Assembly (NCBI GenBank): GCA_951799425.1
Contig: OX637395.1
Coordinates: 15,920,951-15,984,950 of the forward strand
Direction of reading: 5' to 3'
DNA from: Ilex aquifolium
Lineage: Eukaryota > Streptophyta > Magnoliopsida > Aquifoliales > Aquifoliaceae
Length of the DNA: 64,000 nucleotides
Part shown: positions 34,901-54,887 of the stretch, one piece after another
How the letters are laid out: every line of letters starts with the position of its first letter
Numbering within the stretch: the stretch's first letter is position 1
Translations under genes and position numbers: made by a program
The notes under the pieces: generated by a model
What the model was told of the DNA's origin: nothing
Databases searched by the model: none
What the model saw: only the letters and a program-made list of their open reading frames with translations

Positions 34901-36812
34901 AACCACCCAAAATCTGAGAATAAATAGCCTCATATTCAGGTTTCAATCCTACCAAAAATCTAACAACATTCAAATTCTCATGTTGCTTCTGCCAAACTGC
35001 TGCATTAGTAGTAAATGGACAGGCTGGGCTCGCTGAACCACTGAATGATGTAAAAACTGATTGAACCGGTCTGAATCGGTGCAAAACTAGCTGAACCGGA
35101 TTGCAGAAACTAGCTGGACCACTGAACCAGAGCAACAACTGAAGGAACCGGTCTAAACCGGTAAAAAGTTACCTGAACCGACTTAGAGTGGATCAAACCG
35201 GGGTTGAACCGGGACTGAGTCGGACTTGGACCGGTCTGGTTTGAAGGCTACTGTATCTGGGCTGAATCTCTTGGATCTGGACTTGATAATAGTTTATGCC
35301 CGTGGACTTGGATCCGTTACCCAAACCCGCAATCGACCCACTCAAACTGGGTCATCTTCTTCAATAATTAGGGTTTCAACCAATTAGTATTAGTGGTAGT
35401 TTAGTGATTCTCTTAAATTATGTTGTCCTATTATATAAGGGCCTCCATTGTGTATCTAATTAGTTATGTTTTGACAGATTAATGTAATCGTAATATATTT
35501 TTCCTTTTTCTTTCTTTTCTCTTCTTTGTTTGATCAATATTATGAATACCGACTTACAATGTGCTTCATTCACAGGGTATTGATTCTGAGACAGAATTTA
35601 TATTGGCATCATGGAAACTAAGGTGCTTAGTCTTGTCTAGTGTCTGTTTTGCAACTTCAGGTTGCTCTGTTTTATCTTATTTCCTCTTTATATACAGTCA
35701 ACGTGAGAATTTATTGTAAGATGATTTGTAGCTTTCTTTTCCTACACAAAGGATCTGCATCCCAAGTGTCTTAAGTTAAACATGCAAAATGTTCTCGAGG
35801 ACCACTGATGGGGCATTTTTGGATCTGCATCTAGTTAGATTTATGGTTTTATCTACGTTTAGACTTTCCATTAGTAACTCCCTAAATTCCTTCAGTTGAA
35901 ATAGCTGTTCTTCAGAACGCCATTTAAAGTATTAAATGCATAATTTCTTTATGAGATTAATCATACCTATTTTTGATGTAACGTGAAAATGATGGTGATG
36001 GTGAAGGTTTCCAGCTTGAGTTGTTCTTGATTCTAGTACCTGATTTATGGACATTCATTTGCAATAAAATCTGATCAGTGGTATCTAATGCCCAAATATC
36101 AAAGCCATGTGATATGCTTAGCACTGATGATGCATGAAGGAGTAGGAGTTGTGGTCAGTGAACACCTTTCTATCAATGAGATCATGTCCCAGCAATTGCT
36201 GCTGTATACGCAATTCAACTATACTATTATTTCACCAAAACTAGGTGCTTCACCTTTCTACCAATGAGATCATGTCCCAGCAATTGCTGCTGTATACACA
36301 ATTCGACTATACTATTATTTCACCAAAACTAGGTGTTCCATCTCTGAAGCAATATGTCCAAACAGTAACTACTATATTGGTCATCAGTTGATCTTTATTC
36401 ATTGGAAAGAATATTAAGCTCTTTGCAGATTTGCTAGAGAACATTAACTTAGATTATTTCTTCTGTAATATCCTTATTTATGACTAGCAATGGGTGTGTC
36501 CTATTTTTATATCTGAAATATGGTCCTATGTGAGTTGCAGGACCTACCTCAAACTTCCCTGGAGGCCTCTCATTTCCATTGATGGAAGTACGGTCTATGA
36601 TTTAAGCAATGAATTCAAAGTAAGAAAAATTGGAATTTCTTGTGGTCAGTTGTACAAATCCCAACATTTTCTGTGATTTTGAGATGCATATTCACTTCAC
36701 ATAACTTTTATCAATTCAACAGATTGTTAGGCATTCTGAGAGTTGGAACATTTCTGCGCTTGAAGCAGTTGGCCAGATATTTACACCCAGCTCTCGTAGG
36801 CCTGGAGGATGA
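13951..36812 (+). CDS. DUF2358 (NTF2-like) plastid-type protein, 8 exons
   Basis: Eight exons give one 219-residue protein: 13951-14001, 14098-14234, 20491-20597, 23444-23509, 29459-29541, 35576-35622, 36541-36619, 36723-36812. They sum to 660 nt with matching phases, and every intron is GT-AG. Introns measure 96, 6256, 2846, 5949, 6034, 918 and 103 bp. The N-terminus [17 protein letters not shown] and the Ser/Lys-rich following residues look like a chloroplast transit peptide. From about residue 70 the DUF2358 domain is clear: [75 protein letters not shown] and [20 protein letters not shown]. This is an NTF2-like fold of unknown biochemical role; one Arabidopsis member is At3g04890, adjacent to DRT102. 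The exons are open and conserved while the introns are full of transposons, so the gene is probably functional. The weakest splice site is the acceptor of exon 4 (GGATTAAG). Transcript evidence was not available. Confidence 0.88.
14235..15535. other. Intron 2, first part
   Basis: Non-coding intron sequence. A minus-strand ORF at 14369-14746 includes the phrase [14 protein letters not shown], which resembles the start of the RNase H-like domain of plant LINE-derived or reverse-transcriptase-related proteins, so a small decayed retroelement piece is possible. The remainder shows nothing recognisable. Confidence 0.4.
14480..14640 (-). pseudogene. Possible LINE-type RNase H fragment
   Basis: The minus strand encodes [19 protein letters not shown] followed by [13 protein letters not shown]. 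In plant non-LTR element RNase H domains the motif W.PP..G..K.N.DGA....G..G.G.V.RD is standard. Only this piece is present, inside intron 2 and antisense to the host gene. It is short, so the call is tentative. Confidence 0.5.
15536..16304. repeat. Dispersed repeat with GGACACG-rich ends
   Basis: The left end is full of ACACGGACACCGG and GGACACGACACG, and the right end carries the complementary GTGTCCGAAG, TGTGTCC and GACGTGTCC. This leaves subterminal repeats in inverted orientation around an AT-rich centre. The structure is that of a non-autonomous DNA transposon. Exact ends and a target duplication could not be fixed. Confidence 0.45.
16841..17175. mobile_element. MITE-like element with ATGGTTCAA ends, small copy
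   Basis: Starts ATGGTTCAAAGTATCGGCCGATACC and ends in the complement of ATGGTTCAAGGTCGCGGTATCGG, with many subterminal CGGCCGATAC and GAGTCG motifs. No coding capacity. No target duplication is visible. A larger relative lies at 23922-25171 in the same gene. Confidence 0.55.
17176..18429. other. Intron 2, middle part
   Basis: AT-rich intron DNA with no recognisable gene or repeat structure. Short ORFs at 17441-17734 and 17759-18058 have no domain. Confidence 0.4.
18430..18900 (+). repeat. LTR-retrotransposon-like fragment with primer-site phrase
   Basis: TTGTCTCCCACATCAAAAG and GGTTGGATGCACCTATTA precede TGATATCAGAGC at about 18557, close to the TGGTATCAGAGC primer-binding site of many plant copia and TRIM elements. 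The downstream text resembles an untranslated internal leader. Neither LTR edge is certain and there is no coding sequence. Confidence 0.35.
18901..19839. other. Intron 2, late part
   Basis: AT-rich intron DNA; no gene, repeat family or structural motif recognised. Confidence 0.35.
19840..20250 (-). repeat. Two tandem tRNA-like (SINE or primer-site type) repeats
   Basis: Two related units lie in a row, each containing on the minus strand AACATGGTATCAGAGCC followed by a GTTCGAA-like box (AGTTCGAAACTC in the second, degraded in the first) and, upstream, TTAAGCTATTGGA/TTTAAACTATTGGA. Together the boxes resemble a tRNA-Met-related head, as in some plant SINEs or in the leader of TRIM elements. 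The two units end in similar AAGTATTTATACTT text. Confidence 0.5.
20598..23443. other. Intron 3 with nested duplications
   Basis: Besides the duplication described separately, the intron holds AT-rich DNA, a short phrase ATATGGATATGGGATATGGATAAG near 21065 and a poly-T run at about 23319-23331. No coding sequence is recognised; short ORFs at 21244-21456 and 21558-21866 have no domain. Confidence 0.45.
21577..22900. repeat. Old segmental duplication interrupted by a repeat pair
   Basis: The segment 22449-22900 is a diverged copy of 21577-21660 plus 22085-22430: compare GGTTGGATGGAAAAGTTTA with GGTTGGAAAAGTTTA, and the shared TATCTATTGATATAGATAA. The first copy is split by about 420 bp that itself contains two related units, near 21675-21790 and 21903-22025 (CCAATCCAAAATCAAT, ATATATAAACCAACTTT, TTATTCGATGTGAGATA). 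Confidence 0.6.
23922..25171. mobile_element. Non-autonomous element with ATGGWTCAA ends, large copy
   Basis: Starts ATGGATCAAAATATCGATTGAGTCG and ends in the complement of ATGGTTCAAGGTTGCGGTCTC; subterminal GACTCGG and GTCGACTCGG motifs resemble those of 16841-17175. Flanks GGTCACTTC and GGTAACCTA are similar over 9 bp (6 of 9), which would suit a decayed Mutator-type target duplication. The interior has a minus-strand 218-residue ORF (24583-23927) with a duplicated acidic segment ([14 protein letters not shown] / [14 protein letters not shown]) arising from a ~69-bp tandem duplication at about 24340-24475. No transposase is recognisable. Confidence 0.55.
25740..27124 (+). mobile_element. 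Ty1/copia remnant: RNase H end and LTR, split by a MITE
   Basis: Before the inserted element the sequence encodes a copia RNase H segment ([18 protein letters not shown]). After it comes [18 protein letters not shown], the usual RNase H end. The next block, TGTTGACAATAATGC...AATACCCAACA (26917-27124), is an LTR with TG...CA ends. gag, protease, integrase and most of RT are absent. Broken fossil inside intron 4 of the DUF2358 gene. Confidence 0.75.
25928..26791. mobile_element. MITE-like element inserted in the copia RNase H remnant
   Basis: About 860 bp interrupts the copia coding sequence, so it is younger than that remnant. The ends are GCGTTTGGTACGCAG...GTGAGAATG and the complement of GCATTTGGGACATGG...TTGAGAATGGAAT, an imperfect inverted repeat of the common GTTTGG...GAATG plant type. 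The host direct repeat would be only TGC or TGCG. A minus-strand ORF at 26405-26668 has no recognised domain. Confidence 0.6.
27167..27890 (+). mobile_element. Second Ty1/copia deletion derivative
   Basis: Gag-like start [14 protein letters not shown] at 27167 and further gag-type text ([24 protein letters not shown]) run directly into an RNase H end ([15 protein letters not shown]), a purine tract GTGGGGGAG and an LTR-like tail of about 205 bp. That tail differs from the LTR at 26917-27124. The internal domains between gag and RNase H are missing. Fossil in intron 4; several breaks. Confidence 0.65.
27891..29458. other. Intron 4, last part
   Basis: AT-rich intron DNA. The right end of a hAT-like repeat may be present: the complement of TAAGGGTGTCAATTGAGCC at about 28247-28265 with GACACGGC/GACATG motifs inside, but the left partner is not convincing. 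No gene is recognised; the minus-strand ORF at 28812-29015 has no domain. Confidence 0.4.
29985..30336. mobile_element. Small DNA transposon with 8-bp target duplication
   Basis: Flanked by GTTGGAAC at 29977-29984 and 30337-30344. Ends are CAAGGATCAAAATATCGTTTC and the complement of CAAAGGATATTTATCGTTTCGG. GAAACG/CGTTTC motifs recur in both subterminal regions, and the centre repeats AATGTTT/CAAGGTATTT text. No coding capacity. It fits a hAT- or Mutator-like MITE and lies in intron 5. Confidence 0.7.
30370..31070 (+). mobile_element. Ty1/copia RT-RNase H fragment, plus strand
   Basis: Blocks of the copia C-terminal region appear in order: [52 protein letters not shown]...EYHAMTS and [17 protein letters not shown]. 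These are the end of RT and the RNase H domain. The rest of the element is absent. It ends where the opposite-strand copia element begins. Broken fossil in intron 5. Confidence 0.8.
31071..31270 (-). repeat. 3' LTR of the minus-strand copia element
   Basis: On the minus strand TGTTAAGAGTATTAGGG starts immediately after the purine tract TTGAGGGAGAG. The block includes two copies of AGGGTATTATGTGTAAAT in a row and ends ACTTAACA, so it has TG...CA ends about 200 bp apart. The left edge is less certain because the plus-strand copia fragment adjoins it. Confidence 0.6.
31730..32295 (-). pseudogene. Copia RT C-terminal part and RNase H start
   Basis: Contains the RT active-site YVDD motif ([13 protein letters not shown]), [27 protein letters not shown] and [11 protein letters not shown], followed by [15 protein letters not shown] and FSDAD of the RNase H start. 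Fossil coding region of the minus-strand copia element. Confidence 0.85.
32550..34034 (-). pseudogene. Copia integrase and RT N-terminal region
   Basis: A 494-residue open stretch. It starts with the integrase zinc-finger part ([17 protein letters not shown]), then the catalytic core ([10 protein letters not shown] with Asp, [12 protein letters not shown] with Asp, [10 protein letters not shown] with Glu), then the chromo-like GKR/FLGYS segment and the RT start ([27 protein letters not shown]). It is the best preserved piece of this element. Confidence 0.9.
34041..34421 (-). pseudogene. Copia protease region
   Basis: Contains the aspartic protease motif [11 protein letters not shown] near its start and the downstream SLLSISKI segment typical of copia polyproteins. 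Fossil part of the minus-strand element. Confidence 0.85.
34500..35138 (-). pseudogene. Copia gag region with zinc knuckle
   Basis: Contains [17 protein letters not shown], a Gly/Arg-rich basic stretch ([18 protein letters not shown]) and a CCHC-like knuckle [19 protein letters not shown]. The N-terminal third is replaced by sequence rich in CCGGTTCAG units, so the gag start is not recognisable. Confidence 0.75.
36163..36338. repeat. 88-bp tandem duplication in intron 6
   Basis: Two head-to-tail copies (36163-36250, 36251-36338) of a unit containing CCAGCAATTGCTGCTGTATA and CACCAAAACTAGGTG differ at only a few positions, so the duplication is recent compared with other intron repeats. It lies about 200 bp upstream of exon 7. 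Confidence 0.8.
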
Positions 36813-39074: not shown

Positions 39075-39884
39075 TGATGGGGTCTCGGAAATAACGGCCC
39101 AAGCCCAGCCGATGATGTGCTAATGGGTTTTACGAGTTAGTTTGAAAGAGAAGTTAACCTATCGAAAGTGGAAGACACAGAATATAAGTGGTTCACCTTA
39201 GTCGATGGACTAAGGCTACGTCCACTATAATGGAGTCTCCTGCTCCTTGAGGTTGTATATTAATTCCAGGTGAGTACAAGCGAGTTACAAGCGCTGGGCC
39301 CGTATAAATGTGTATGCCTTGTTCTACTGAATACCCGTGAGTGGGGAATATAATGGGGAAGATGAAGATGGTGATCTAGAGAGGAAGCCCCTCAAGTTGC
39401 ATAGCACTGTTCTACTTATATGGGTCGTCCATCCTAGGGTTCCTGGTGGCTCCTTTTTGCCTTTTTCCTGATCTTGTGGGGACCTCCCGTCCTTGTCCTG
39501 CAAAAGCTTTTGTTAGCCGGCGCTCTTGTGCCCACGATCTCTGGATCGTTATGCACCACCTCCTCCTGTGTTCGGGAGGGTGTAACTGTCTTAGGTTTCA
39601 GAGATGGTCCTCTTGCCTCTTGGACACGTGGTGCGACGGGATCCTTTCCAGGGCAGGGGTGCGATTCCTCTTTCCCAGATTGCCCTTTGGCTGGTACAGG
39701 ATTGGGCCGGGACTGGACTACTGGTCATCCGGAGCCGTTGGGCTTAGTCTTTTAGCCATTTCCGCTCTCAACGTGGGCTAATTGGAGGCACTTTTCTTGG
39801 GCTAATAAGCCCAACTTTTGGGTTCTCAAGGTGTATTGGGCTCCGAGGCTATGGCAGCCCATGCCCAAAATTCTACCATTATCA
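39075..39884 (-). repeat. 3' LTR of the Tat-type gypsy element
   Basis: On the minus strand it runs from TGATAATGGTAGAATTTTGG to CCCCATCA, 810 bp with TG...CA ends, preceded by a purine-rich tract (GGGCTGGGGGGCAAC). It matches the 5' LTR over about 778 bp. Confidence 0.9.
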
Positions 39885-39900
39885 GTTGCCCCCCAGCCCG
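39885..39900 (-). other. Polypurine tract of the gypsy element
   Basis: The minus strand reads GGGCTGGGGGGCAAC directly before the TG start of the 3' LTR, where plus-strand DNA synthesis of LTR elements is primed. Confidence 0.65.
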
Positions 39901-40569
39901 TGGTCATGAGGATGACGTCATCTCTGACCTGGGGTTAGAAATGTCTTTTTCGAATTTTGACATTATCTCTCTATGTGGTGGAAATGTCTGGTGGTCGACA
40001 TTGCTCTGATTTGGGCTGAGTTGATATCTGCTGGTTATGATGAGATGGTTCGCACACGTGTCACCAACGGGTGAGCCCAATGGTACAGTTTCCTTGGCGT
40101 GTCCCTGTCATTTGCCTGTCACGGCTTTAAATATTGTGTACAAAAGGGGAAATCCCTTTGTCTTCCCTATTTTGTGCTTTTCGAAGACTCCTCCTTGCGT
40201 CTCCTTCTCTCCTTTTGGCTTTTGAGGCGTCTCGTTCCTAGCTCTTTGGGTGGCTTAGGATCCCTGCGTTCCCCGTTCCTTTCTGCTTCTAGCGTCTCAC
40301 TAGGTACGTCTCTCTTCCCTTCTTCTTTTTTGCTCGACTTGGATCCCCCCAACCCTCCCTGGTGGGGCTTTGGGTTCCGCTTTCTGATCTGGAGATTTAG
40401 CTACTTCAGGAGTCATTCCGATGACCTTTCCTCCCTTTCGTATTTTGTGGATCATTCTATTTTGCTAAGGGTATCCTTTCTTAGGGGTTGGTGTCTGAGA
40501 CCTCCATTTTTTACGGATTGCGCCTTACACCTGCCTTCCCTACACTCTAGTTTGCAACCTGAACCTTTG

Positions 40570-42670
40570 ATGGGGAAGTTTGTCGTTTCCTCTTCTGAGT
40601 CGGATTTCGAGGATCAAGTAGGTGAGGAGGTCGAGGAGAGTACCTCGGGTTCCTCGAGCGACCGCTCTTTTACCGTTGGTGAGGCGGCTTCTGGGTCTGC
40701 CCCTAGAGTTTCTGCTTCAGCTCCTTTAATAGAGGCTCGACCTCTTTCATCTTTGCCTCCTATCTCTCCTGTTCAGTCGAGGAAGAGGAAGTCCAAGTCG
40801 AATCCTCCCCCTGCTCCTAGGAAGAAAGTTCGTCGTGATCAAACCGACCTGACCTGTTGTGCGGAGGTGACTCCCAGTTGTCTCAAAGACGAGGATTTGG
40901 GTGAGCTGAGGCGGGAGTATCGTTTTCCTGACTCCGTTGTCTTACATTCTCCCGAGGATCATGAGAGGTGTAATTCTTCCATTCCTAGGCTGGTCTGTTT
41001 CTTCGAGTCTGCATTCCGGGCTGGTCTGCGGTTCCCTGTTCACCCCTTTATCCGGAATGTTCTCGGATTTTACAACGTCTACCCTGCCCGGCTCTCTCCA
41101 AACGGCTGGGGCCTTCTGACTGGGTTCCTTGCCCATTGGTTTATGAGTGGGAACGACTCTCACTCCACCATTAGGGAATTTGCCTCTCTCTTCCAGCTTA
41201 AGTCTTCTCCTTCCTTGGGTTTCCTGTATTTTGCGAAAAGGGTTAAGGCGAAGAACCTAATTTCTGGGCTTCCCTCTTCTAACAAGGGGTGGAAACCCAG
41301 GTTCTTCTTTGTTAGAGGCGACTCCTGGGAGCTGTCGGGGGAACCTGGCGATGTTCCCCGCATCCCCAGGTTTTGGGGGGTTCCAAGGAATACTCGTAAG
41401 GCTCTTCTATCGGCTGTGCTTTTCTTTTCTGTTTTCTCCTTACTGTCTTACTTAGCTTCTGATTTGGTTTGCAGACTTTTGTCCAACACTTGACGCTGAG
41501 GAGGCTACCAAAGTCGCCAGGGCCGAGGCTTTAGGGTTGTAATCCTTCTTCGACTTGGTGACTGACCATAATCTTGCTACGTACGAGCTCGGTCCTCCCG
41601 TTGATCAAGCTCTAGAGACTGCACTGTCGCTTGCCCCCCAGCCTGAGCCCATGAATCAAGATTTAATCATGGCGATGTTCTCGGATACCGAGAAGTCGAG
41701 GAAGAAAAGGAAGCTGGTGAAGGGCTTGCCGCCGTCATCCAAGGAGGCATCGGTATCCGAGCCCATGTCTGTCTCCTCGGGGCAGAAGAAAGAGGATCCT
41801 TCTTCCCATGAAGGTGTGGCTGCTCCCTCGTCGCCCCTTGAGACACCTGAGAGCAAATCTCCAACTGAGGGGGCTTCGAGGGGACAGCCGGGGTCTCTGA
41901 TGCCCTTCCTCAGCCTGTCTCACAGGAAGGCGGGAAGGTGGAAACCGTTCCTTCCACATCCAAGACGCAAGGGGGCGGCTTCCTTTGTGACCCCGAGGCC
42001 GCCGTTACTACTTTATCCGAGCTGATTTTTATATCGGATCCTAGGGTGGCCATGCAGGTTCCTTTCGAAAGGAAGGTCCACCGCTCCATCCGGGACCTGG
42101 CCGAGGTAATTTCTGCCTTTACCGTTGCCTTCTTTCTGGAGTCCTTTTCATGCAGTTCTCTTGGTCATCTCCTGCACTAACCCCTCTCCTTTTCAGTCGT
42201 TGCCTGCGTGAAGATGATAGACTTTCATCATGAGCAGGAGCTCCTGAAAGCCAAGGAATCTCTCGACGCCGTGACGGTGGGTAAAGGGGCCGCCGAGGAG
42301 AAGGTGAGGATTCTGTCAGCCGAGGCTATTGAACTGAAGAGGATTAATGACGAGATGGATGCCCGCCACCAAGATCTCATCAAGCTCAAGGATTCGGAGA
42401 TAAAAGACAATGAGGCTTAGCTCAAAGCCAAAGAAGCCGACCTGGCGGCCAAGGACTCTGAACTTAAAGCTAAAGATGCTGACCTGGTGGCCAAGGACTC
42501 TGAACTATCATCCCTACGGGCCCAGGTGTCAAAGCTTCTAAAAGAGAGCGTTTTTGCCTTTGTGAAAGGGTTCGTGAATCTCCAGTAACAGATCGAGGAG
42601 GCTTATCTTGATCTTGACCTGGACCCTTCATGCCACAGCTCGGATTTAAAAAGGCGGTTGCGGTAGCTGA
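40570..42670 (+). pseudogene. Antisense additional coding unit 1 of the gypsy element
   Basis: First of three related units on the strand opposite gag-pol. After an acidic/Ser-rich head (MGKFVVSSSESDFED) and a basic RKRKSKS segment comes the core: EYRFPDSVV, SAFRAGLRFPVHPFIRNVLG, LSPNGWGLLTGFL, then SGLPSSNKGWKPRFFFVRGD. This core resembles the family called putative gypsy type transposon (PF04195, by memory). Later blocks (41555-42025, 42208-42670) are a Ser/Pro-rich linker and a Glu/Lys-rich coiled coil with repeated KAKEADLAAKDSEL text, ending near FVKGFVNL and YLDLDLD. Splicing is known for such units; block boundaries are left open. Fossil. Confidence 0.75.
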
Positions 42671-43318
42671 AGAGGTTGAGGAGACATCTGTACCTGAGGC
42701 AGTTGCGACCGAGGAGCTCGGCGCCCCGGCGGAGGCTGCTAGAGGGGGAGTCGGTGGTGGTAATGAAACTGTTCTTTGAGGCTAGCTTGTGGTTATTCCT
42801 CTTTTTTTTTTGTAACTCTCTGATGACCTTTTGTCTTGTAGTGCTTCATTCTCCCCTCAATGATAATGTAACTTCTTGGTTGATGTACTCGTGTATTTTT
42901 TTCAATGAGGATACTATCGCTGGTTTTTCATTTCCTATGGATGATGTATCTTTTGTTATGCCCCTTCTTGGTAATTATGTTGTCTTTAGGTAATTGTGAC
43001 GAGTGAAAATAAGGCTTGTTTGAGCTGACCTCCTTATGCAGTCGAGCTGACTCAAATCAAGAACTTTCCCGAGCCTGTTCTTCTCCGGGTACTCAAGTTT
43101 GGGTTCCCTGGGGCTATTTTGGTCTTTTTCCAGTCCTTTCCGTGCACCCCAGACTTGACAGTTTCATCCGTTTTGAGAACGTGCACCGCCGGTGGGGTTA
43201 GTGGCCCCTCGATCGTGGCGCCCAGAAAGCCTCTACGATGCCACGTGTCCCCCCCTTAAATGCGAGGGACGTGCATTAACTGTGCCGGGCGAACGTGATG
43301 GGCGCATGCCTGATGGGC

Positions 43319-43328
43319 CTATAAATAG
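43319..43328 (+). promoter_or_regulatory. TATA box upstream of antisense unit 2
   Basis: CTATAAATAG about 110 bp upstream of the Met at 43437, oriented with the antisense units rather than with gag-pol. It suggests that unit 2 had its own promoter inside the element. Confidence 0.5.
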
Positions 43329-43436
43329 ATGCTCCTGAGGAATGATTGCCTCATTTTGGGCGCCAAAGTTTTCTGCTTCTCCTTACTTTTTTCTTCTCCG
43401 GTGTTTCAGAGGAAAACCCATTTGCTTTCTGTTCTC

Positions 43437-45454
43437 ATGGCCAGGACCCCTTCTTCTCCACGCGACGTTATGGAACGACTCTTCCCCGACGTCGAAGTTA
43501 GTGAAATCGACGAGGAAGGGGCTCAGTCCATGGCTAAGCACTTCGAGTTTCCTCCTGGAGTGGTTGTGCGCCATGCCAACTTGCGTTGGTTTCATTGCTT
43601 GGTCAGGGGCGAGGCTTGCTTCTTCGAGGCCTCTTTTCTATTAGGGTTCCGATTTCCACTTTCCTCCTTCATGCGAGAGGTTTTGCACTTCTTCAGTTTC
43701 TGTCCCGCCATGCTTCTCCCAGCAGCTTGGGCGGTCTTATTGGCTTTCACGGCGGCGTGGGGGAGGTTATTCCCCTAGTCTAGGGCCATTATGCCGGAGT
43801 TCCTTCATTTTTTCTGTCCCGAGGAGATGTCTGAGTTCTATCACTTCACCCCTAGGCAGGGAGTGGAAATTCCTATCCTGGACCTCCCTTCAGAGCCGAA
43901 AGAGTGGAGGAAGAGGTTCTTCTTCGTTTCTGGAGATGGATGGGAATATTGGGCCTACTTTCCGGCCTTAGTAAGGGTTCCCACGGAGTGGGGGCAGCGC
44001 AGGAATCTGGGTGAGTTTGCACATGTAGTAACGACTTCGTTATTTCTTTGGTCTTATATGTCTAATTTTTTTGTGTTCATAGGCGAGCTCCCACCTTTGT
44101 CTGGCGAGGAGTTGGCTCGAGTTAATCAAGTCCGAGCTCCCCGGCCCTTTTCATACACTGACTGATGTATCCTGAGCTGACCTCGGCGCCGAGCGATCGT
44201 GAGTATCGAACATTCTGCTCTTATTGTCCTGCTTTCGTTTTGTTTGGAAACTTATTCATTTTTCTGTTTTTCTTATGTAGTCCCTTCGTACTTGGTTACC
44301 CAGCGGAGGGTGATTATGGAGCAGGTGGGTCATAGGAGGCGAACCAGGAGCTGGGAGCTTGTGGAGAAGAGGGCCAGGCTGGGGGCAAGCAGCTCGGACT
44401 CGACTTTCGGTGCAGGTGCCGGCCCTGAGGCTCCCGGTGCTGGAGGTGAAGCCCTGACGACCTCGCTGACACCGAGCTCTTCTGCTGGGGTACTGACTTC
44501 CGAGCCCTTGCCTACGGCTGGGGAGGCGTCACTGTCTGTGCCTGTGCCCATCTCTACGGCGGGCACAGTTGTGGCCAGCCCGATAACAGGCCTGGTTCGG
44601 CGAGGTTCTGCACCAACTGGGGTTGCAGGTTCCAGCTTGGCACGTGTTCCACCTGCTCCGTTTGTCAACCTTGAGGGGAGTTTGCAGAGGGACGTGGGTC
44701 TAAGTAGCCGTGCACTGATGGACTTGACCCCCCAGGTTGACCTGAGACGCTCTGTAGATCTTCCTTTCTGAACTCGGAGTCAAGAGGCGCTTCATGCCCT
44801 TTTTGAGGCAAGTTCCGCCTTTCCTGGTGCTTCTCTTTGCTTTTAACTCTATCATTATGACCTTTATCTTCGTTTTCAGGCGGTGATGCAAGTCTGCGCA
44901 CTTGGAAATGAGGTTTTTGTCCTGAGAAATTCTATTCAGCGGAGGTTGGTTGTGCTTCAAGAGACACGCCAACGGAACTCCGAGCTCCTTAGCTGGGGTT
45001 TGGCCACCAAGAGGAGTTGGAACAAGTTCTCGATCAGCGGGCTCAGACCTTTAGGCAACTAATTGCCAGTACTTCCGTCGAGGTGTCTCTTCGGGATGAA
45101 TTAGCTCGGGCGAGGGAGGACTATGATGCTCAGATCGAGGACTTACTTAATTCTGCTATTACTCGGTCATTGCTGGTGGACCAGCTGAGGGAGTCCCGGG
45201 CTGAGATTGTTGAGCTGAGGAATTCTTTGGCTGTCGAGCGCCAGTTGGTCGAGGATCAACGGAAAGAGATCGAAAAGTCCAGGCTGGAGGCGGCCAGGGC
45301 CTTTGTGGATGGGTTCTTCAATTTTGCTGACCAGACGATTGAGAAATTCCATGACTTGGATCTCGAGCGATTTCAACTGCGGTTTGATGTCCCTCCAGGT
45401 GGTCCTCCAGCTTATGATGCCGCTCCTCCAGCTACTCCCTCTGATCAGTCTTGA
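43437..45454 (+). pseudogene. Antisense additional coding unit 2 of the gypsy element
   Basis: Second related unit. Head MARTPSSPRDVMERLFPDV, then the core HFEFPPGVVVRHAN, FLLGFRFPLSSFMREVLHFF, LLPAAWAVLLAF and further on PSEPKEWRKRFFFVSGDGWE. A Ser/Ala/Pro-rich linker follows (about 44350-44770), then a long coiled coil (45017-45330; LRDELARAREDYDAQIEDLL, LVDQLRESRAEIVELRNSL) and a tail ARAFVDGFFNFADQ...FHDLDLE that matches the tail of unit 1. TTGTAATGAAG downstream may serve for polyadenylation. Divided into exon-like blocks. Fossil. Confidence 0.75.
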
Positions 45455-45999
45455 AGACCAAACTCTTATTGTTCTCTCTTGTAACTACTCCTTTTTTTTT
45501 TTTGAATGCAACACTTGTAACTACTTTCTTTTTGTAATGAAGCTTTCTCTTAGCTACAAAGTTCTCTGATGATGTGTTGTCGATGCTTGTCGGTGCCATG
45601 TTCCCTTGGCCCCCTACTCCGAAGAGGCCTTGGTCTGTTTGAAGGGTGTTATTTGTGCTGCCCATTCCCCTGTCCTGCGCTCTATGGTCCGAGTAGCTTT
45701 TCCTTAGGTTAGGCTCCCTTAGCCATTAATCGCTGTGACCGTTCGTTTCTGGTGCAGTGTACGAAGTGGCTGTTCGTCTAAGTGAACCTTTAGACGACTC
45801 AACAACCTCCACCTACCTTGCGTCATTATCATTAATGCTATCATGATTGTAGAAACCCAACAGTCACATGTCATTGATGCATGCTATTTATTTCCAAGTG
45901 TTTGGAACTCCTTACATTCTCATTGTTCTTCGCATACCTTCTTGTTCCTCGCTTGCTCTTTTGCTACTTGCCTTCATTCCTTCCTCCCACCTTTGAAGT

Positions 46000-47130
46000 T
46001 CATGGTTTCCTCTCATTCTCCCCTTTTCAAACAGCGGGCTCGGGAAGCACTGGATGATTCCTAGTACTCTATTTTTTTCTCCCTCCTCTGTTCACCGCCG
46101 CTGATATGGGGGGGGGATAAGGAGGCAATACGACTTCCCGGAGGATCTCGTGGTCAGGGCCCCTACCCCGGATGAGCCTTGTAGTCTTTCTTCCCGTCGG
46201 GAAGTTTCATTTTTTGAGGGCTCATTCGAAATGGGCCTCTGCTTCCCCATTCATCAAGACTTCGCTTGGGTTCTTTCCTACTATGGGTTGTGCCTTTCTC
46301 GCCTTTTCCCTGAGGGGTGGGCTGCTCTGGTGAGTTTCTTCATTTTCTGGCGCCTCCAAGGCTTCGATGACTTCCTTACCGTTGGGTAATTCATTTACTT
46401 CTTCGAGCTTTCCTTCGATTTCCCTCCTATTTTCAGCACTTTCAATTGGAGGCTATTTTGCTACCCTCATCTGATCTCGGGCCTCCCCAGTTCCCCTGAA
46501 GGGTGGACTCGTCGCTTCTTCTTCATTTCTGGGGACACATAGGAGTCCACGGTGAGAGAAAATTATCATGTCCGGGTTCCCCGTACTTGGAGGAGCTTTC
46601 GTGACGAAGGTATGTATATGAAAAACCTATTGGTCTCCATTTAACTAGTCTTCGCTGGCAAATGTTGTGTTGACTTCGTTTGCATTGACATTGCGTTGTG
46701 CAGGTCGTCCTAGCCTTACCCCTGGAGAAGAGCTTGAGATCATTCTTGTGGAGCAGGCCGCGCCGGTCCCCTTTTTCGACCTCGTCACCCCTCTGAATCT
46801 CGTTTTGTTTAATATAGGGGGTAGTTCGAGCAGGATTATATTTGTGCCTTCCTCCTTCCCCGAATCTGATACTTCATCTTCCGAGTCTGATGAAGCCGTT
46901 CCCAGCTCCGAGCCTGATGAGGCCACTCCTAGCAGAAAGAGGTCAAGGGGCGGCTCAGAATCCCGTCGCTGCCTTCTCATGATGCTGTGGTGGAGATCCT
47001 CATGAGGCGGCTTGCTGATGTCGAGGCTGAGAGGAATGTTCTGAGGGAGGAGAATTTCCGCCTTCGGGCTGTTAATGCTGAACTAGAGAAGGGGAACTCT
47101 AAGTTGAAGGGGCCTGCCGGGGGCAGCTAG
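46000..47130 (+). pseudogene. Antisense additional coding unit 3 of the gypsy element
   Basis: Third, shortest related unit. Head MVSSHSPLFKQRAREALDD; core QYDFPEDLVVRAP, SFEMGLCFPIHQDFAWVLSY, LFPEGWAALVSFF and SSPEGWTRRFFFISGDT. An acidic Ser-rich linker follows (SDTSSSESDEAVPSSEPDEA), then a short coiled coil (ADVEAERNVLREENFRLRAV). The gag-like core is clearly homologous to units 1 and 2 but diverged. TTGTAATCC near 47155 may mark its 3' end. Divided into blocks. Fossil. Confidence 0.7.
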
Positions 47131-47397
47131 GGCGTTTCTTTTTTTTTGTTTTGCTTGTAATCCTTGAAAATTCTTGGTCTCTAAATGAAATGGTTCTCTG
47201 TGTTTGTCTTTGTTGAGTTGTTTTTGTGATTACCATAATCTTGTGGATGACTTGCTTTTAGCCACTTTCTCTCCACACCGAGTAATAGGCTGAAACACTC
47301 TGTTTTAAGGTTCTTAGCTTAGTGGATTGCCTAAGCGAAGCAGTTCTTAGCCGAAAATCTTTAGTCTGTTAACACGGCAGAACGGCTCGCGGCTTCT

Positions 47398-48033
47398 CCT
47401 GAGCTGAAAAGCCTAGTCGTCCCAAGTTTACGAGCTCTTAGGCTGAAAAGCCTAATAGATGCCCGAGCTTGCGAGCTTTTAGGCTGAAAAGTCTAGTAAA
47501 TTTTCGAGCTTACGAGCTCTTAGGCTAAAAAGCCTAGTAGATTCCCAAGCTTGCGAGCTCTTAGGCTGAAAAGCCTAGTAGACTCTCGATCTTGCGAGCT
47601 CTTAGGCTGAAAAGCCTAGTAGATTCCCGAGCTTACGAGCTCTTAGGTTGAAAAGCCTAGTTGATTTCTGAGCTTACGAGCTCTTAGGCTGAAAAGCCTA
47701 GTAGATTCCCGAGCTTGCGAGCTCTTAGGCTGAAAAGCCTAGTAGACTCCCAATCTTGCGATCTGTTAGGCTGAAAAGCCTAGTAGATTTCCGAGCTTAC
47801 GAGCTCTTAGGCTTAAAAGCCTAGTAGATTCCCGAGCTTGCGAGCTCTTAGGCTGAAAAGCCTAGTAGATTTCCGAGCCTACGAGCTCTTAGGCTGAAAA
47901 GCCTAGTAAATTTCTGAGCTTACGAGCTCTTAGGCTAAAAAACCTAGTAGACTCCCGAGCTTGCGAGCTCTTAGGCTGAAAAACCTGATAGATTCCGAGC
48001 TTACGAGCTCTTAGGCTGAAAAGTCTGGTTGTT
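47398..48033. repeat. 40-bp minisatellite, about 16 copies
   Basis: About 16 tandem units of 40 bp, consensus halves CCGAGCTTGCGAGCTCTTAG and GCTGAAAAGCCTAGTAGATT. Copies vary mostly at TTGCG/TTACG and GATTCCC/GATTTCT. In most units the plus strand contains TAGGCT-GAAA-AGCCTA, a 6-bp stem with a GAAA loop. The array lies between antisense unit 3 and the integrase end. Confidence 0.95.
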
Positions 48034-48147
48034 GCTCTGTCTGGAGTTTTCATAGGCATTGCTTAGTGCAAGTTTTTTCCTTCGCGTTGACCTTTGGAAC
48101 TTCATTGATTTCAAAAAATTTTTACAGTGACTCTCCTTCCTCTTAGT

Positions 48148-48530
48148 TAGGGGTGTCAAATGTGTCGGGTTGGGTCAGTTTCGTGTCGTGTCACTTTCGA
48201 TCGTGTTATTTTCGTGTCGTGTCATTTCGGTACGTGTCGGGTTCGTGTCAATATTCGTGTTAATAAAAAATTATTTAATTTGACAACAACTAATATAATA
48301 TTATTTAAAAAATTATACAAAATTATAAAAAAATTATAAAATTCTTATTTAAGAATATAATATTCGTTAAATAATTATTTTCTATCTACAGTACCCATTA
48401 ATCGTGTTATTCGTGTCGAACCTTAATTTGACCCATTTATTATAGTGTCAACTAATCGTATTTTTTTCGAGTTCGTGTCGGGTTCGGTTCGAGTCGGGTT
48501 CGTGTTTCGAGTAAAAAATTGACACCCCTA
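48148..48530. mobile_element. hAT-type MITE nested in the gypsy element
   Basis: Terminal inverted repeats TAGGGGTGTCAA and TTGACACCCCTA, flanked by a perfect 8-bp target duplication CTCTTAGT at 48140-48147 and 48531-48538. Subterminal regions carry many GTGTCGGGT and GTGTCGTGTC motifs; the centre is AT-rich and non-coding. It must be younger than the gypsy insertion that surrounds it. Confidence 0.92.
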
Positions 48531-48624
48531 CTCTTAGTATAATGGCTTTCGGGAGGTCCTACTGGTAGTAACGCTTCAAGTGATCCGCGTTCCATGAGTG
48601 CTGTAGGCCTCTTCCTTCCTTCGT

Positions 48625-49816
48625 CTATAGCTTGTGGTTACCTGGCCGGACAACCCTTTTTACAATGTATGGTCCTTCCCAGTTAGGTCCGAGCTTGCCA
48701 TGGGCGGGGTCCTTCCTGGCCGGGAGTAGCTTTTTCAGCACTAGGTCGCCTGGTTTGAAACTCCTTCTTTTCACCCGCTTATTGTAAAACCTTGTCGTGC
48801 TCCTCTGGTAGGAGAAGATCTGCTGCAGTGCTTCATTTCTCTTTTCGTCCAAGAGATCGAGGTTTACCAACAGGGACCTCTCGTTCTGCCCTGGATCAAA
48901 AAGTTCGGCTCTCGTAGAGGGCATGCCCACCTCGACTGGGGCCATCGCCTCCGTCCCATATGCCAAGCTAAATGGAGTCTCGTCGGTCGCAGTTCGGGTA
49001 GTTTTTCGGTATGCCCATAGTACTGCTAGGAGGTGGTCCACCCATTGAGGCTTAGACGCCATCAACCTGGTCTTGAGCGCCAGCTTGATGGTTCTCATGG
49101 ATACCTCGGCCTGTCCATTGGACTGCGGGTGAGCAGGTGCTGAGAAGTAATTTTTGATTCCTAGCTCGTCGCAAAAGCCGTGAACATCGGATTATCAAAC
49201 TGTTTCCCATTATCAGAAACCAGTGCCCTGGGGACACCGAAGCGGCAGATTATGGACTTCTAGACAAAGTTCTTGACTTTCTGCGCTTTGATCTTAGTCA
49301 GAGACTCGGTCTCAGCCCACTTGGTGAAGTAATCCACCGCGACCACGACGAATTTGCACTATCTGACCCCGACTGGTAGGGGCCCCAAGATATCCAAGCC
49401 CCACTGTTGAAAAGGCCGAGGGCTGACCACGAGGGTGAGCAGCTCGGGTGGGCAATGGGACAGGTTGCGTGGATCTGGCAAGCTTGGCATCGCTTCACTA
49501 TTTCCTTGGCATCCTTGGACATAGTTGGCCAAAAGTAACCCTACTGTAATGCCTTGCTTGCCAAAGTTTTTGTGCCAACATGGTTTCCGCACATGCCTTC
49601 GTGGATTTCTCTTAAAATATAATCTGCTTCCACTCCAGACACACATTTCATTAATGGAAAAGAAAAACCTCTTTTGTAAAGGTTACCTTGGACTATCGTG
49701 AATCTTGCCGCTTTGGCTCTCAGTTTGGATGCATCCTTCAGGTCGTCTGGCAGTACTCCGTCTCGTAAGAAGGATACGATAGGGTTCATCCACGAAGCGT
49801 TCTCCTCGACTGGCAT
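48625..49816 (-). pseudogene. Gypsy integrase region
   Basis: Contains the zinc-binding side (ILREIHEGMCGNHVGTKTLA, CQACQIHA), core pieces (PRPFQQWGLDILGPLPVG with Asp), the later core part PQWVDHLLAVLWAYRKT and TDETPFSLAYGTEA, and the C-terminal FKPGDLVLKK, LGPNWEGPYIVKRV. Order and motifs are standard for gypsy integrase. Broken in more than one place. Confidence 0.85.
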
Positions 49817-49849
49817 GGCTTGGTCTTCGTTGGTTTGTCCCTCATTGAG

Positions 49850-50740
49850 CTATATGCTGGGCTCGGCTAGGACCTCGACTGGCGCTAGTCCGGGCAAGCC
49901 GTGGTCGGAGGAAGCGGTGGTAGCGAGCCTGGCCAGGGCGTCGGCCAGGGCGTTGGCTTCTCGGGGGACTTGCACCAGCTCAGCCAAGACGAATTTTCCC
50001 AATAGGTTACGTACTTTCATCACGTAGAGTGCCATCTTTTCGTTTCTGGCGGCGTATTCCTCTTCGACCTGCCTTACCACCAGCTGCGAGTCACTATGGA
50101 TCACGATCTGTTGCGCATCCATTGACAAGGCAAGGTTTAAACCAGCTATCAAGGCCTCGTATTCCACCTCATTGTTGGATGCCTGAAAGTTAAATCTCAG
50201 GGCATATTCCAGGTCGTATCCCTCTGGTGAGGTCAGGACGAGTCCGGCCCCGCTTCCTTGGGCATTTGAAGCTCCATCCACATACAGTTTCCAGGTCGGC
50301 ACGTCGGGGATACTGTCTTGGTCTTCTGCGTTCTCTCCAGGTGGAGAGGTAAACTCGGCAAGGAAGTCTGTCAGGACCTGTCCCTTGATTGCAGTCCTGG
50401 GTTTGAACTTGATGTCGAACTCGCTAAGCTCCATTACCCATTTTACTAGTCTCCCGGAGGCTTCCGGCTTATGCAGGATCTGCCTCATCGATTGGTCGGT
50501 TGGAATCTCTATGGTGTGCACTTGAAAATAGGGCCTCAGCCTCCGAGCTGCCACTACGAGGGCTAGCACCAGCTTCTCCGTCTTTGGGTATCTCTCTTCG
50601 GCCCCCCGGAGGGCTTTGCTGCAGAAGTAGATTAGTTGTTGGACTTTCTCCCTATCCTTCACAAGGGCGGCACTGACTGAGAAGTCTGATATGGCCAGAT
50701 AAAGGGTCAGGACCTCTCCTTCCTGAGGACTCACCAACAC
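49850..50740 (-). pseudogene. Gypsy RNase H region, including a plant-type domain
   Basis: A 296-residue open stretch. The first half is the gypsy RT-linked RNase H (YLAISDFSVSAALVKDRE, YFCSKALRGAEERYPKTEK). The second half is another RNase H domain (WKLYVDGASNAQGSGAGLVL, NNEVEYEALIAGLNLAL, IHSDSQLVVRQV, PREANALADALARLA) with its acidic catalytic residues visible. A second RNase H domain of this kind is a known mark of the Tat lineage. Confidence 0.9.
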
Positions 50741-50814
50741 GGGTGGCGATGCTAAATAGGCTTTGAGGGCCTGGAAAGCTTTTTCGCATTTTTCATCCCA
50801 CTGGAAAGTCGCCT

Positions 50815-51611
50815 TTAGGACCTTGAAGAATGGCTGGCACTTGTCGCTGGAGCGCGTATTCTTCCGGTGAGGCGTTGTATCTCTCGGGTGCTGGTGGGGG
50901 GTTTCATTTCAAGAATAGCCTTCACCTTCTCGGGGTTCGCCACGATACCCCTGCTGTTGACTATAAATCCTAGGAATTTCCCTGCCGATACTCCAAAGGC
51001 ACACTTTGCCGGGTTTAGCTTCATCCGATACTTCCGCAGAATTTCGAACAACTCTCCGAGATGTTGAATATGGGACTCGGCTTTTAGCAATTTCACGAGC
51101 ATGTCGTCTATATATACTTCCATAGTCGAGTCGAGCTTTTCGCGGAACATTCTATTAACCAACCTCTGCTAGGTGGCCCTGACATTTTTCAATCCGAACG
51201 ACATCACCTGATAGCAGAAGATCCCTTGTTCTATGACGAACGAGGTTTTCTCCTGGTCGTTCGGATCCATTTTGATCTGGTTATACCTAGAGAAGGCGTC
51301 TATGAAGCTGAGGAGCTCATGGCCGACCGTGGCGTCGACTATTAGGTCGATCCGGGGCAATGGGAAACTATCCTTGGGGCATGCTCGGTTAAGGTCGGTG
51401 AAGTCGATGCAAAGTCGCCATTTGACGTTTACTTCTTCACGAGAACAACGTTCGCTATCCAGGTCAGGTAATCAACCTCCCTGATGGCTTTGGCTCGTAA
51501 CAGCTTGGCCACCTCCTCATTTATAGCTTTCTGCCTGTCGGGTGCGAAGCTTCTCCTCTTTTGTCTCACGGGTTTGCAGCCCGGGTCAACACTAAGCCGG
51601 TGTATGATCAC
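50815..51611 (-). pseudogene. Gypsy reverse transcriptase region
   Basis: Contains CKPVRQKRRSFAPDRQKAI, AKAIREVDY, LLSFIDAFSRYNQIKM, EKTSFVIEQGIFCYQVMSFG, the active-site motif VYIDDMLVK and LNPAKCAFGVSAGKFLGFIV. Order and motifs are those of gypsy RT. Fossil with several breaks. Confidence 0.9.
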
Positions 51612-52122
51612 GGCGGGGTATATTCCACCCCCACGAAGACATTGGCGTTCTCTTTCAGAAATGAGATGAGCTTCTCCTTAATGAGCGGGAGCAGCATGGA
51701 GCCCACAAAGACTACGTGCTCTGGGTCCTCGCCCAGCTGCATGGGTTCCAGCTGCTTCGTGGGGGTAGGCCGGGTTTCCATTTCATCTCTCATGTCTAAG
51801 TCCTCCAGTTGCACTGATTCTACCTCCCTTTGCCGCATTGATGCCACGTAGCACTCCCTAGCGAGGTGTTGGTCTCCCCTGACCGTATCGACACCATTCT
51901 CGGTGGGGAACTTCATCACCAAATGGTACGCCGATGGTATCGGCTTGATGGAATTAGGGACGGCCTTCCCAGGAGGACGTTGTAGGCAGAAGGGGCGTCC
52001 ACCACCAGGAAGTGGACGGTGGTCATAACTTGGCAGGGTTGGTCCCCTATGGTCAGGACGAGTGGGATAGAGCCAACCGGCAAGACTCTCTCACCCGAGA
52101 AGCCCAAAAGATGTGTCTTCAT
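51608..52122 (-). pseudogene. Gypsy protease region and linker to RT
   Basis: LTIGDQPCQVMTTVHFLVVD and SAYNVLLGRPSL are the conserved C-terminal part of gypsy aspartic proteases; the following acidic stretch links to RT. The N-terminal active-site side is expected around 52150-52240 but is less clear. Confidence 0.8.
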
Positions 52123-52372
52123 GGGTTCAAGCCTCGATCTCTCTATTCCGAGCTAGTCAAACGCTGACAAGAAAATGATGTCTGCTGAGCTCCCATTGTC
52201 AACCAGCACTCGATATATAGTTTTGTTTGTGATAATCACCTTTATGACTAGAGGGTCTTCATGCGAGTGCTGGCATCCCTCGAGGTCTGCATCAGAAAAA
52301 GTGATCTCCACTTCGAGGCGGGGTGCCTTCCGGACAGCCTGGACTTCGAGGAAATCTTTTGACTGGGCCTTC

Positions 52373-54055
52373 CTAGCATACGCCCTCCAGGCTGAGCTGG
52401 ACTCTCCCCCTCCAGCGAATCCTCCCGAGATGACTCGGATCTCGCCTATGGTTTGCTGGTGCTATTGTGGGGGCTGAGGCAGCTCGAGCACCTTGCCTCT
52501 GGTTATCCTGCTTTCTTCCTTCTCCTGCCACATACTGGCGTAGGTGACCCATTTGGATCAGGTACTCTATTTCCTTCTTGAGCTGGATACAATCGTTTGT
52601 CTCATGGCCAGTGTCTTTATGGAATTCACAGTACTTCACGGGATCCCTCATCCTCGGATCGGACTTCATCCGAGGTGGCCATCGGACGAATCTCTCATTT
52701 TGTACCTCATACAGGACTTGTGCAATAGAGGTGACCAAGGATGGGAGCCTTGCCGGGGCATATCGGGGTTGTAGTTCCTGTGGCGGGGGCCCCAGGCGAT
52801 CTCAGACGTTACCTCTCCTCTTAGGAGAAGGCTCTCTTCCTCTCCTCGGTGAGCAGTCTCTTCTCGGGGATCACTCATGTTTCCTCTCCTTCCTAAGACT
52901 GCGGTCCCTCCTTTTCTTTTCTCTTTCCGTCGGTGCCATGCCTTCTTTGAGGCGGAGGGCTTCTTCGCCGTTGATGTATTTTTTGGCTTTTGCCAAGACT
53001 TCGGCCATGGTAGCTTAAGGGTTTTTTGCTATCGAGAAAAGGAGGTCCTTAGACTATATTCCCAGCCCAGACATGAAAGTGGTCAGTGCAAACTTATCAT
53101 CCACACTTTCCACCTTCAGACACTCTTGATTGAAGCGTTGCACATAGCTTCGGAGGGATTTGTCAGGCCCCTGTTTGACACTCAGGAGGTGGTAGGACGG
53201 CTTCCTGTACGTCCTAGCTCCGATAAAATAGGATACAAATTGTATTGAGAGTTCTCGGAAGGATGAAATCGATGCAGGTTATAGCCTGTTAAACCAGGCT
53301 ATTGCCGACCCCTTAAGAGTGATGGCAAATGCCCTACAGCGAATTGGATCAGGGTATCCTTGGAGTTCCATTTGATTTTTATAGGAGTTCAAGTGACCAA
53401 CCGGGTCCTTGGTTCCGTCGAACGCCTCTACGGACGGCATCCGGAACTTCTGTGGGAGAGGGAAGTGGAGGACCTCGAGAACGAATGGTGATTCGGTCTG
53501 CTGGACTAGGGCGTCCATAGTATCGGGGGTCTTTCCCTTAGCTGCCTCTTTCATGTTACCCACCTCTCGTTGGAGCTCATAAAGTCTCCATTCCAACAGA
53601 CGATCCTCGGGATCCGACGAAGGGTGAGATCTGTCTTCTCGGAATTCGGCTCTAGCCCGACTGTGGGCTTCATCTTCGTCGCGTTCTTTGAGTTATCTCC
53701 TCCAGTGATTTTCCCCTGAGTGGTTGCGCTCATGGAGCTCAGTGACTCCATTTGGCTGAGCTTGGAGCTCCTGATGAGGGGCGTCATGTTCAGCTGGGGG
53801 TGGAGGGGGCTCCTGTCGAGCTGGTGGGAACCGAGGAAGCTGGTGTGTCTGTATCCACTCCATCAATTCTTGGTTCTGCTTTATCAGTTGTATCGTAGTT
53901 CGATGGTAGGTTTCCAGTTCATTGAGTGGGGGGAGGTTCGCCGCTGGGGGATGACCTTCGACGTCTTCTTTAGGGGTCGGAAAGTTCTCCGGTAGATTTT
54001 GGTGGACTTGGGGATTGGCAGGAGCTTTACTCATGTTCCGAGTTGAAACCATCAA
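52373..54055 (-). pseudogene. Gypsy gag region
   Basis: Reading leftward: MVSTRNMSKAPANPQVHQNL at the start, a Pro/Gln/His-rich stretch, the conserved KFRMPSVEAFDGTKDPVGHL and YPDPIRCRAFAITLKGSAIAW core, and a zinc-knuckle-like CEFHKDTGHETNDCIQL. These are hallmarks of Tat and Athila-type gag proteins. Broken in several places. Confidence 0.88.
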
Positions 54056-54091
54056 GTAGATAAAAACTCAAAGGAAAACGATGAAAATTAT

Positions 54092-54110
54092 TCCCACAGA
54101 CGGCGCCAAC
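54092..54110 (-). other. Primer-binding site of the gypsy element
   Basis: The minus strand reads TTGGCGCCGTCTGTGGGAA immediately inside the 5' LTR, at the position where minus-strand synthesis is primed by a host tRNA. The tRNA identity cannot be settled by eye. Confidence 0.7.
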
Positions 54111-54887
54111 TGATGGGGTCTCGGAAATAACGGTCCAAGCCCATCCGATGAGGTGCTAATGAGTTTTACGAGTTGGTTTGAAAGAGAATTTAACCTATCG
54201 AAAGTGGAAGGCACAAAAAATAAGTGGTTCACCTTAGTCGATGGACTAAGGCTATGTCCACTATAATGGAGTCTCCTGCTCCTTGAGGTTGTATATTAAT
54301 TCCAGGTGAGTACAAGCGAGTTACAGGTGCTGGGCCCGTATAAATGCGTATGCCTTATTCTACTGAATACCCATGAGTGGGGAATACAATGGGGAAGATG
54401 AAGATGGTGATCCAGAGAGGAAGCCCCTCAAGTTGCATATCACTGTTCTACTTATATGGGTCGTCCGTCCTAGGGTTCCTGGTGGCTCTTTATGCCTTTT
54501 TCCTAATCTTGTGGGGACCTCCCGTCCTTGTCCTGCAAAAGCTTCTACTAGTCAGCGCTCCTGTGCCCACGATCTCTGGATCGTTGTGCACCACCTCCTC
54601 CTGCGTTCGGGAGGGTGTAACTGTCTTAGGTTTCAGAGATGGTCTCCTTGCCTCTTGGACACGTGGTGCGACGGGATCCTTTCTAGGGCAGGAGTGCGAT
54701 TCCTCTTTCCCAGATTGCCCTTTGGCTGGTACAGGATTGGGCCGGGACTGGACTACTGGTCATCCAGAGCCGTTGGGCTTGGTCTTTTAGCCCTTTCCGC
54801 TCTCAACGTGGGCTAATTAGAGGCACTTCTCTTGGGCTAATAAGCCCAACTTCTGGGTTCTCAAGGTGTATTGGGCTCCGAGGCTAT
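54111..54887 (-). repeat. 5' LTR of the Tat-type gypsy element
   Basis: Aligns with the 3' LTR from its CCCCATCA inner end for 777 bp at about 95 percent identity by eye. At its outer end it runs directly into a TA repeat and the 5S-like sequence. Confidence 0.88.

Follow-up and report, generated by a model that had tools for sequence, protein, structure and literature searches.

A long terminal repeat (LTR) retrotransposon in Ilex aquifolium contig OX637395.1 very probably carries three paralogous antisense genes of the TRP28 family (PF04195), which share a core and a predicted intron position, which kept coding constraint after they split, and which we read as genes for nuclear regulators. 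The element lies in the 64,000-nucleotide stretch that we analysed (the window), and positions are counted from its first letter. The three units, U1 (about 40.57-42.8 kb), U2 (about 43.3-45.46 kb) and U3 (about 46.0-47.13 kb), all lie on the plus strand, opposite to gag-pol. An earlier reading made from the letters alone, hereafter the sequence-only reading, had placed three homologous antisense units in a single gypsy element, between its integrase and its 3' LTR. This proposal is confirmed, since for each pair of units the observed core score was reached by 0 of 1000 shuffles and PF04195 was found in all three.

The TRP28 cores comprise 169 (U1), 170 (U2) and 168 (U3) residues and can be aligned end to end. 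For these alignments in-frame stops were written as X; there are none in U1, one in U2 (at 43776) and two in U3. The Smith-Waterman scores are 234 for U1-U2, 287 for U1-U3 and 173 for U2-U3, while shuffled means are 31.7-33.5 and shuffled maxima 57-61, and the corresponding identities are 35%, 38% and 32%. We also compared the cores with all 135 open reading frames (ORFs) of at least 80 residues in the window, counting either strand and the ORFs of the units themselves. Outside the cores, the highest scores were 53, 42 and 47, the score of 53 against the U1 core coming from another frame at 42667-42990. Cores that align no better with one another than with unrelated sequence had been named as the refuting outcome; we observed instead scores far above both the shuffles and the window ORFs.

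Matches to PF04195 (Transposase_28, 'Putative gypsy type transposon') pass the Pfam gathering score of 26.2 for U1 (6.6e-11, 41.2-42.7 bits) and U3 (3.1e-6, 27.8 bits). U2 (1.8e-5, 24.1-25.3 bits) falls slightly short of it, yet its core is homologous to both of the others. These matches are confined to positions 1-48 of the 69 in the profile. The similarity among the units extends well past them, from LPS..(K/E)xW..RFFF..GD through R(V/I)P..W, and because of this the true TRP28 domain is probably about 150 residues long, judging from the alignments. The motifs given by the sequence-only reading fit approximately, with two departures in U3 (FPxxLV in place of FPxxVV, and a G(L/F)xFP block longer by one residue) and one in U2 (KEW in place of KGW). 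The tail that it described as common to U1 and U2 (FVKGFVNL / FVDGFFNF, then DLDL) is present in the translation. Its profile check came out in part: PF04195 is matched by the three units, U2 under the cut-off, while plant mobile domain families are not, no Pfam match to them being listed for any of 14 pieces at a limit of E 10 in a search where HMMER filtering removes the majority of matches weaker than E 0.1. Its label 'gag-like' does not hold, as the family is PF04195/TRP28 and the presumed gag pieces of the element score 21-35 against the cores, which is background. No gag family of Pfam matched the unit pieces; the element's own gag pieces match no gag profile at E 0.01 either, so Pfam is weak here. 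A PDB sequence search with the U1 core gave 14 matches up to E 10, the best of which, 'Cap' (E 0.026 over 44 residues), we take as chance.

All three units contain a predicted GT-AG intron of phase 1 whose donor lies seven residues past an invariant W (FWGVPRNT, EWGQRRNL and TWRSFRDE). Splice sites were ranked by simple consensus scoring among 410 GT donors and 432 AG acceptors, with weights that were not fitted. The gene structures are as follows.

40570-41395, plus strand: U1 exon 1, stop-free, with an acidic/Ser-rich N-terminus, a basic stretch and the TRP28 core (40888-41394)
41396-41474, plus strand: U1 intron 1, predicted, phase 1, 79 nucleotides; donor rank 34, acceptor rank 16
41475-42640, plus strand: U1 downstream part, a linker with a basic cluster, a charged tail and FVKGFVNL...DLDL, interrupted by stops and a frame change
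42106-42196, plus strand: U1 second putative intron, donor rank 6, preceding the tail; frame not cleanly restored in the present sequence
43437-44010, plus strand: U2 exon 1, TRP28 core from 43503, with the one in-frame stop at 43776
44011-44082, plus strand: U2 intron 1, predicted, phase 1, 72 nucleotides; donor rank 12, acceptor rank 3
44083-45454, plus strand: U2 downstream part, a Ser/Ala/Pro-rich linker with a basic cluster, a charged tail and FVDGFFNF...DLDL, interrupted by stops
44808-44879, plus strand: U2 second putative intron, GC donor, acceptor at 44879 of rank 1, preceding the tail
46105-46609, plus strand: U3 exon 1, TRP28 core with two in-frame stops; putative start
46610-46703, plus strand: U3 intron 1, predicted, phase 1, 94 nucleotides; donor rank 1, acceptor rank 31
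46704-47130, plus strand: U3 downstream part, an FFDLVT block, an acidic linker with RKRSR, and a short charged tail in a different frame

The lengths of the U1 and U3 introns are not multiples of three, and their frames would therefore become continuous only through splicing. Downstream of the intron, blocks of U1 and U3 align (score reached by 0 of 2000 shuffles), as do those of U1 and U2 (12 of 2000). Basic clusters occur in the linkers of U1, U2 and U3; no FVxGF tail was seen in the U3 downstream part, and the short frame that starts with the ATG at 46002 is out of phase with the U3 core. Taken by their anatomy, the units look like spliced antisense genes with predicted introns. The interpretation given by the sequence-only reading is partly supported (a single element, homologous antisense units, old divergence and promoter-like sites), and the predicted intron is an addition to it. 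The shared intron also predicts spliced antisense mRNAs, for which a 2020 review called, in the portion of it considered here (PMC7264820). Together with the position of U2 below the Pfam cut-off, the intron suggests that such genes may be undercounted in surveys that depend on profile cut-offs or on long ORFs without interruption.

Between units, codon identity is 0.45-0.50 at first, 0.47-0.58 at second and 0.31-0.37 at third positions, and permuted codons give 0.25-0.29. This pattern indicates that silent sites are near saturation and that protein identity has been kept. Because third positions lie near background and the two LTRs of the element differ by a K of 0.052, the split of the units is, by this codon comparison, far older than the present insertion, which agrees with the old divergence that the sequence-only reading had supposed. 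The cores of about 170 codons hold zero (U1), one (U2) and two (U3) stops, compared with 5.7-6.3 in shuffles (P 0.003 for U1 and 0.008 for U2). We infer that the copies remained coding across many rounds of transposition. Three long-diverged, constrained TRP28 copies suggest divisible work done for the element.

The host is an LTR retrotransposon with gag-pol on the minus strand and an internal region at 39885-54110 (14,226 bp), made up of these parts.

39075-39884, minus strand: 3' LTR, TG...CA, the final 32 bp read by eye
about 39885-39900: polypurine tract immediately inside the 3' LTR, read by eye
48625-54067, minus strand: decayed gag-pol in multiple pieces, with reverse transcriptase, first RNase H and second RNase H (RVT_3) by Pfam, and gag and integrase by eye and position
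54111-54887, minus strand: 5' LTR, outer 32 bp or so absent, with a sequence like a primer binding site, TTGGCGCC, immediately inside

The LTR pair (39075-39852 and 54111-54887) has 738 identities in 778 positions, a divergence of 5.0% (K 0.052). One ORF holds RT_RNaseH at 68-164 and RVT_3 at 211-328, and we take RVT_3 in a Tat-type element to be the archaeal-type RNase H, the second RNase H by which Tat elements are recognised. The G+C content of 40-54 kb is 0.47-0.52 and that of the remainder of the window 0.29-0.47, and the base composition of the three-unit region resembles that of gag-pol. The POL-3'LTR region, measured to the 3' LTR from where the last pol ORF ends (48625), spans about 8.7 kb, or 8.3 kb without a miniature inverted-repeat transposable element (MITE). 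This MITE (48148-48530, 383 bp, terminal repeats TAGGGGTGTCAA, 8-bp duplication CTCTTAGT at 48140 and 48531) is nested between the integrase and a 41-bp tandem array, and presumably it is hAT-like, to go by the length of its duplication. In the part of PMC5348765 drawn on here, a second RNase H downstream of the gypsy RNase H is a Tat feature. The element also has the antisense TRP28 gene and the long POL-3'LTR region that characterise Retand elements (PMC11963269). Thus the host is a decayed, Retand-like LTR retrotransposon of the Tat clade of Ty3/gypsy elements, and the present copy is broken.

In a survey of Retand elements (Vicient 2025, PMC11963269, from which we use part of the main text and Table 1), antisense TRP28 is found in all but two of 63 clusters. 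The surprise at such a gene that the sequence-only reading implied is therefore misplaced, 61 of 63 clusters having one. The survey assigns TRP28 to 57 of 104 antisense ORFs of at least 600 bp; counting in its Table 1, we find an ORF of that size with TRP28 in 56 clusters and a shorter one in a further five. Since 57 ORFs serve 56 clusters, a second TRP28 copy is at most rare there. It further reports a prediction of DNA binding, POL-3'LTR regions of 2,933-6,566 bp and, in roughly half the cases, tandem arrays. The element described here resembles the surveyed ones in its long POL-3'LTR region, antisense TRP28 gene and tandem array beside pol. However, it has three TRP28 paralogues where the survey has about one per element, a predicted intron common to its units, and an internal region (14.2 kb) and POL-3'LTR region (about 8.7 kb) that surpass the survey maxima of 12,869 and 6,566 bp. 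Neither a multi-copy TRP28 element nor introns are mentioned in the part of the survey's text used here, and several TRP28 paralogues per element are undescribed in the titles and abstract openings among the matches listed, subscription papers aside. An antisense TRP28 gene thus looks ordinary for Retand elements, and three in one element look like an uncommon variant.

Several observations weigh against the reading of the units as three spliced, constrained genes for nuclear regulators. Their introns and promoters are predictions from sequence, and the post-intron blocks of U2 and U3 do not align significantly (158 of 2000 shuffles). The stop count of U3 is borderline (P 0.06) and not clearly low; in a simulation at the LTR divergence with an assumed 80% transitions, 0.3-0.5 new stops per core are expected after insertion, against which the two in U3 are high (P 0.05). 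Third-position identity of U1-U3 is about 2 standard deviations over background, with the other pairs less. The tails are 36-41% charged, and in a simple test of the coiled-coil tails that the sequence-only reading described, their heptad contrast is not above shuffles (P 0.18, 0.62 and 0.55). An AlphaFold model of the U1 core, run with U2 and U3 pieces as rows of an input alignment with misplaced fragments, had a mean predicted local distance difference test score of 43.6 and is unusable, so it lends no structural support to DNA binding. Upstream of the genes the units are, apart from one short box described below, unalignable (208 of 1000 shuffles for U1-U2, 952 for U1-U3 and 456 for U2-U3). 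Finally, with no relatives in the non-plant collections scanned, the triplicate is known from one locus. In those collections of viral and genome contigs, neither meant for plants, a scan with the U1 core returned one stretch and scans with the three-row core alignment returned 112 and 154, none of them confirmed. RNase H scans of the same collections returned three stretches, none confirmed, and 65 that gave one locus, which we set aside: a bacterial contig whose similarity spans the second RNase H at 32% identity.

The absence of alignment between the promoters also bears on how the triplicate arose. Along with third codon positions near saturation and a best unit-against-unit blastn match of only E 0.03, it favors a mosaic origin, in which template switching among genomic RNAs packaged together would have joined units of diverged Retand lineages, in place of the duplication within one lineage that the sequence-only reading suggested. 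We consider such an origin possible but doubtful, given that U1 and U2 have in common their tail motifs and the T-rich stretch that follows, 2,692 bp apart, although such features might also be common to different lineages of a family. That T-rich stretch enters into a second alternative, by which U2 and U3 are pieces of other elements nested later in the host. Two short imperfect direct-repeat pairs exist besides the 41-bp array, and one of them (27 nucleotides, 81%, T-rich, at 42786 and 45478) flanks U2; nesting does occur here, as the MITE at 48148-48530 with its 8-bp duplication illustrates. However, there are no inverted repeats of at least 18 bp in 39880-48150, and 40050-47260 has no match to the host LTRs or to other window sequence at E 1e-3. 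The units also have a gag-pol-like composition, a uniform orientation and a common intron position. Within the window, then, the insertion check proposed by the sequence-only reading, made for repeats of 18 bp and longer and for the host's own LTRs, finds no inverted-repeat pair or host-LTR piece bracketing a unit, and it does find the short 27-nucleotide direct repeats around U2. We read that repeat pair as the 3' end of U1 and its counterpart in U2, and separate insertions appear unlikely as the source of the units; that U2 and U3 are nested foreign pieces strikes us as very improbable. For the preferred reading of three paralogues, the presence of introns would further rule out retroposition of antisense mRNA as the source of the copies, an argument from anatomy.

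Almost all Retand elements carry TRP28 genes, for which, to our knowledge, no function is known. In the mechanism that we propose, each unit would be transcribed from its own upstream region, its transcript would be spliced, and the product would be a nuclear protein composed of the TRP28 core, a basic linker resembling a nuclear localization signal, and a charged tail, possibly serving association. Antisense placement would explain how a retroelement can contain such intron-bearing genes: splicing of the genomic RNA would leave their introns untouched, so that on anatomical grounds these would survive retrotransposition. Our tentative view of the function, to which we give somewhat less than an even chance, is that the proteins act in trans on element DNA as nuclear regulators of the element's own expression and that the copies have specialised. 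The HBZ gene of human T-cell leukaemia virus 1 (HTLV-1), spliced and encoding a coiled coil, is likewise an antisense nuclear regulator gene of a retroelement; it is a single gene and the likeness is by analogy only. HTLV-1 HBZ is named in PMC11963269. Another case is gene23 of maize Grande, which by its description in PMC7264820 (Vicient and Casacuberta 2020), the sole basis of this comparison, is an antisense accessory gene between pol and the 3' LTR with its own promoter and a nuclear protein; Grande has one such gene and the present element three. The same review, in the part used, raises the possibility that regulation is exerted by the antisense transcripts of such ORFs, which would pair with the genomic RNA and give double-stranded or small RNA, with any protein function secondary. 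The codon-position pattern indicates constraint at the protein level and makes this improbable as the principal role here. A structural or packaging role alongside Gag, suggested by the sequence-only reading and touched on by the chance-level 'Cap' match of the U1 core, also seems to us unlikely to be right, as the units lack gag similarity and as the basic clusters in the linkers and the nuclear Grande GENE23 (PMC7264820, as described there in part) point to the nucleus.

Promoter-like stretches precede two of the units.

40055-40133, plus strand: U1 promoter-like stretch, CACGTGTC at 40055 and TTTAAATA at 40126; putative function
43242-43328, plus strand: U2 promoter-like stretch, CACGTGTC at 43242 and TATAAATA at 43320; putative function

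The TATA box that the sequence-only reading had noted near 43319 is thus present, as TATAAATA at 43320. From CACGTGTC to the TATA-like site the distance is 71 bp in U1 (TTTAAATA) and 78 bp in U2 (TATAAATA); U3 has a weak TATA-like site only, seen by eye. CACGTGTC occurs four times in the window, the two strands taken together, compared with 0.54 expected, and four copies were reached in 0 of 100 shuffles, a pattern that was noticed post hoc and in which the two LTR copies count as one event. Two of the sites (40055 and 43242, plus strand) precede U1 and U2, and the other two (39623 and 54658, minus strand) lie in both LTRs on the gag-pol strand. Their placement and orientation would therefore make CACGTGTC a common box upstream of gag-pol and two antisense genes, and common regulation of gag-pol, U1 and U2 through shared boxes is possible.

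The region between the units and pol contains a tandem array.

47403-48023, no strand assigned: 41-bp tandem array of 15.2 copies, the consensus unit having inverted repeats TAGGCT/AGCCTA and GAGCT/AGCTC

In 20,000 mononucleotide shuffles of the 41-mer, an inverted repeat with one arm of at least 6 has P 0.060, and a disjoint pair, its arms being 6 or longer in one repeat and 5 or longer in the other, has P 0.0045; the arm lengths were picked after inspection, which makes the test weak. VANC proteins are anti-silencing proteins of the Arabidopsis VANDAL transposons, and in the portion of PMC5735166 consulted they offer a possible parallel, an element-coded protein with element-specific tandem repeats. 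However, VANDAL is a DNA transposon, its proteins differ, and binding to the array is putative here. At its fullest, the scheme would have the three TRP28 proteins form a specialised, sequence-specific anti-silencing or trans-activating set, dimers of which bind the palindrome-bearing 41-bp array by U3 and its relatives in other copies. An LTR retrotransposon would then have evolved, independently, a counterpart of the VANC system; the antisense position of the genes would shield their introns during replication, and the shared CACGTGTC box would tie their expression to that of gag-pol. We offer this extension as speculation that is probably wrong as a whole.

Other features of the window lie around the element. 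Just outside the 5' LTR, across a TA-rich joining stretch, is a diverged, full-length 5S rRNA copy (54902-55019, minus strand; Rfam RF00001, 62.5 bits, model 1-120). The 12-mer CCAATGACTATT is found at 39058 and at 55020, outside both element ends. This suggests that an older 5S-derived retroposon received the element in its tail, a 12-bp target being duplicated in the process. A search for tRNA genes found none. A Ty1/copia-type pol piece (32550-34040, minus strand) matches integrase core, SH3-like and RVT_2 domains, and an 88-bp tandem duplication occupies 36163-36338. A 345-residue open frame (7225-8262, minus strand) with LacAB_rpiB and cupin domains is probably a host gene, and a further open frame (58592-59605, minus strand) matches the plant family DUF868 with E 2.8e-75.

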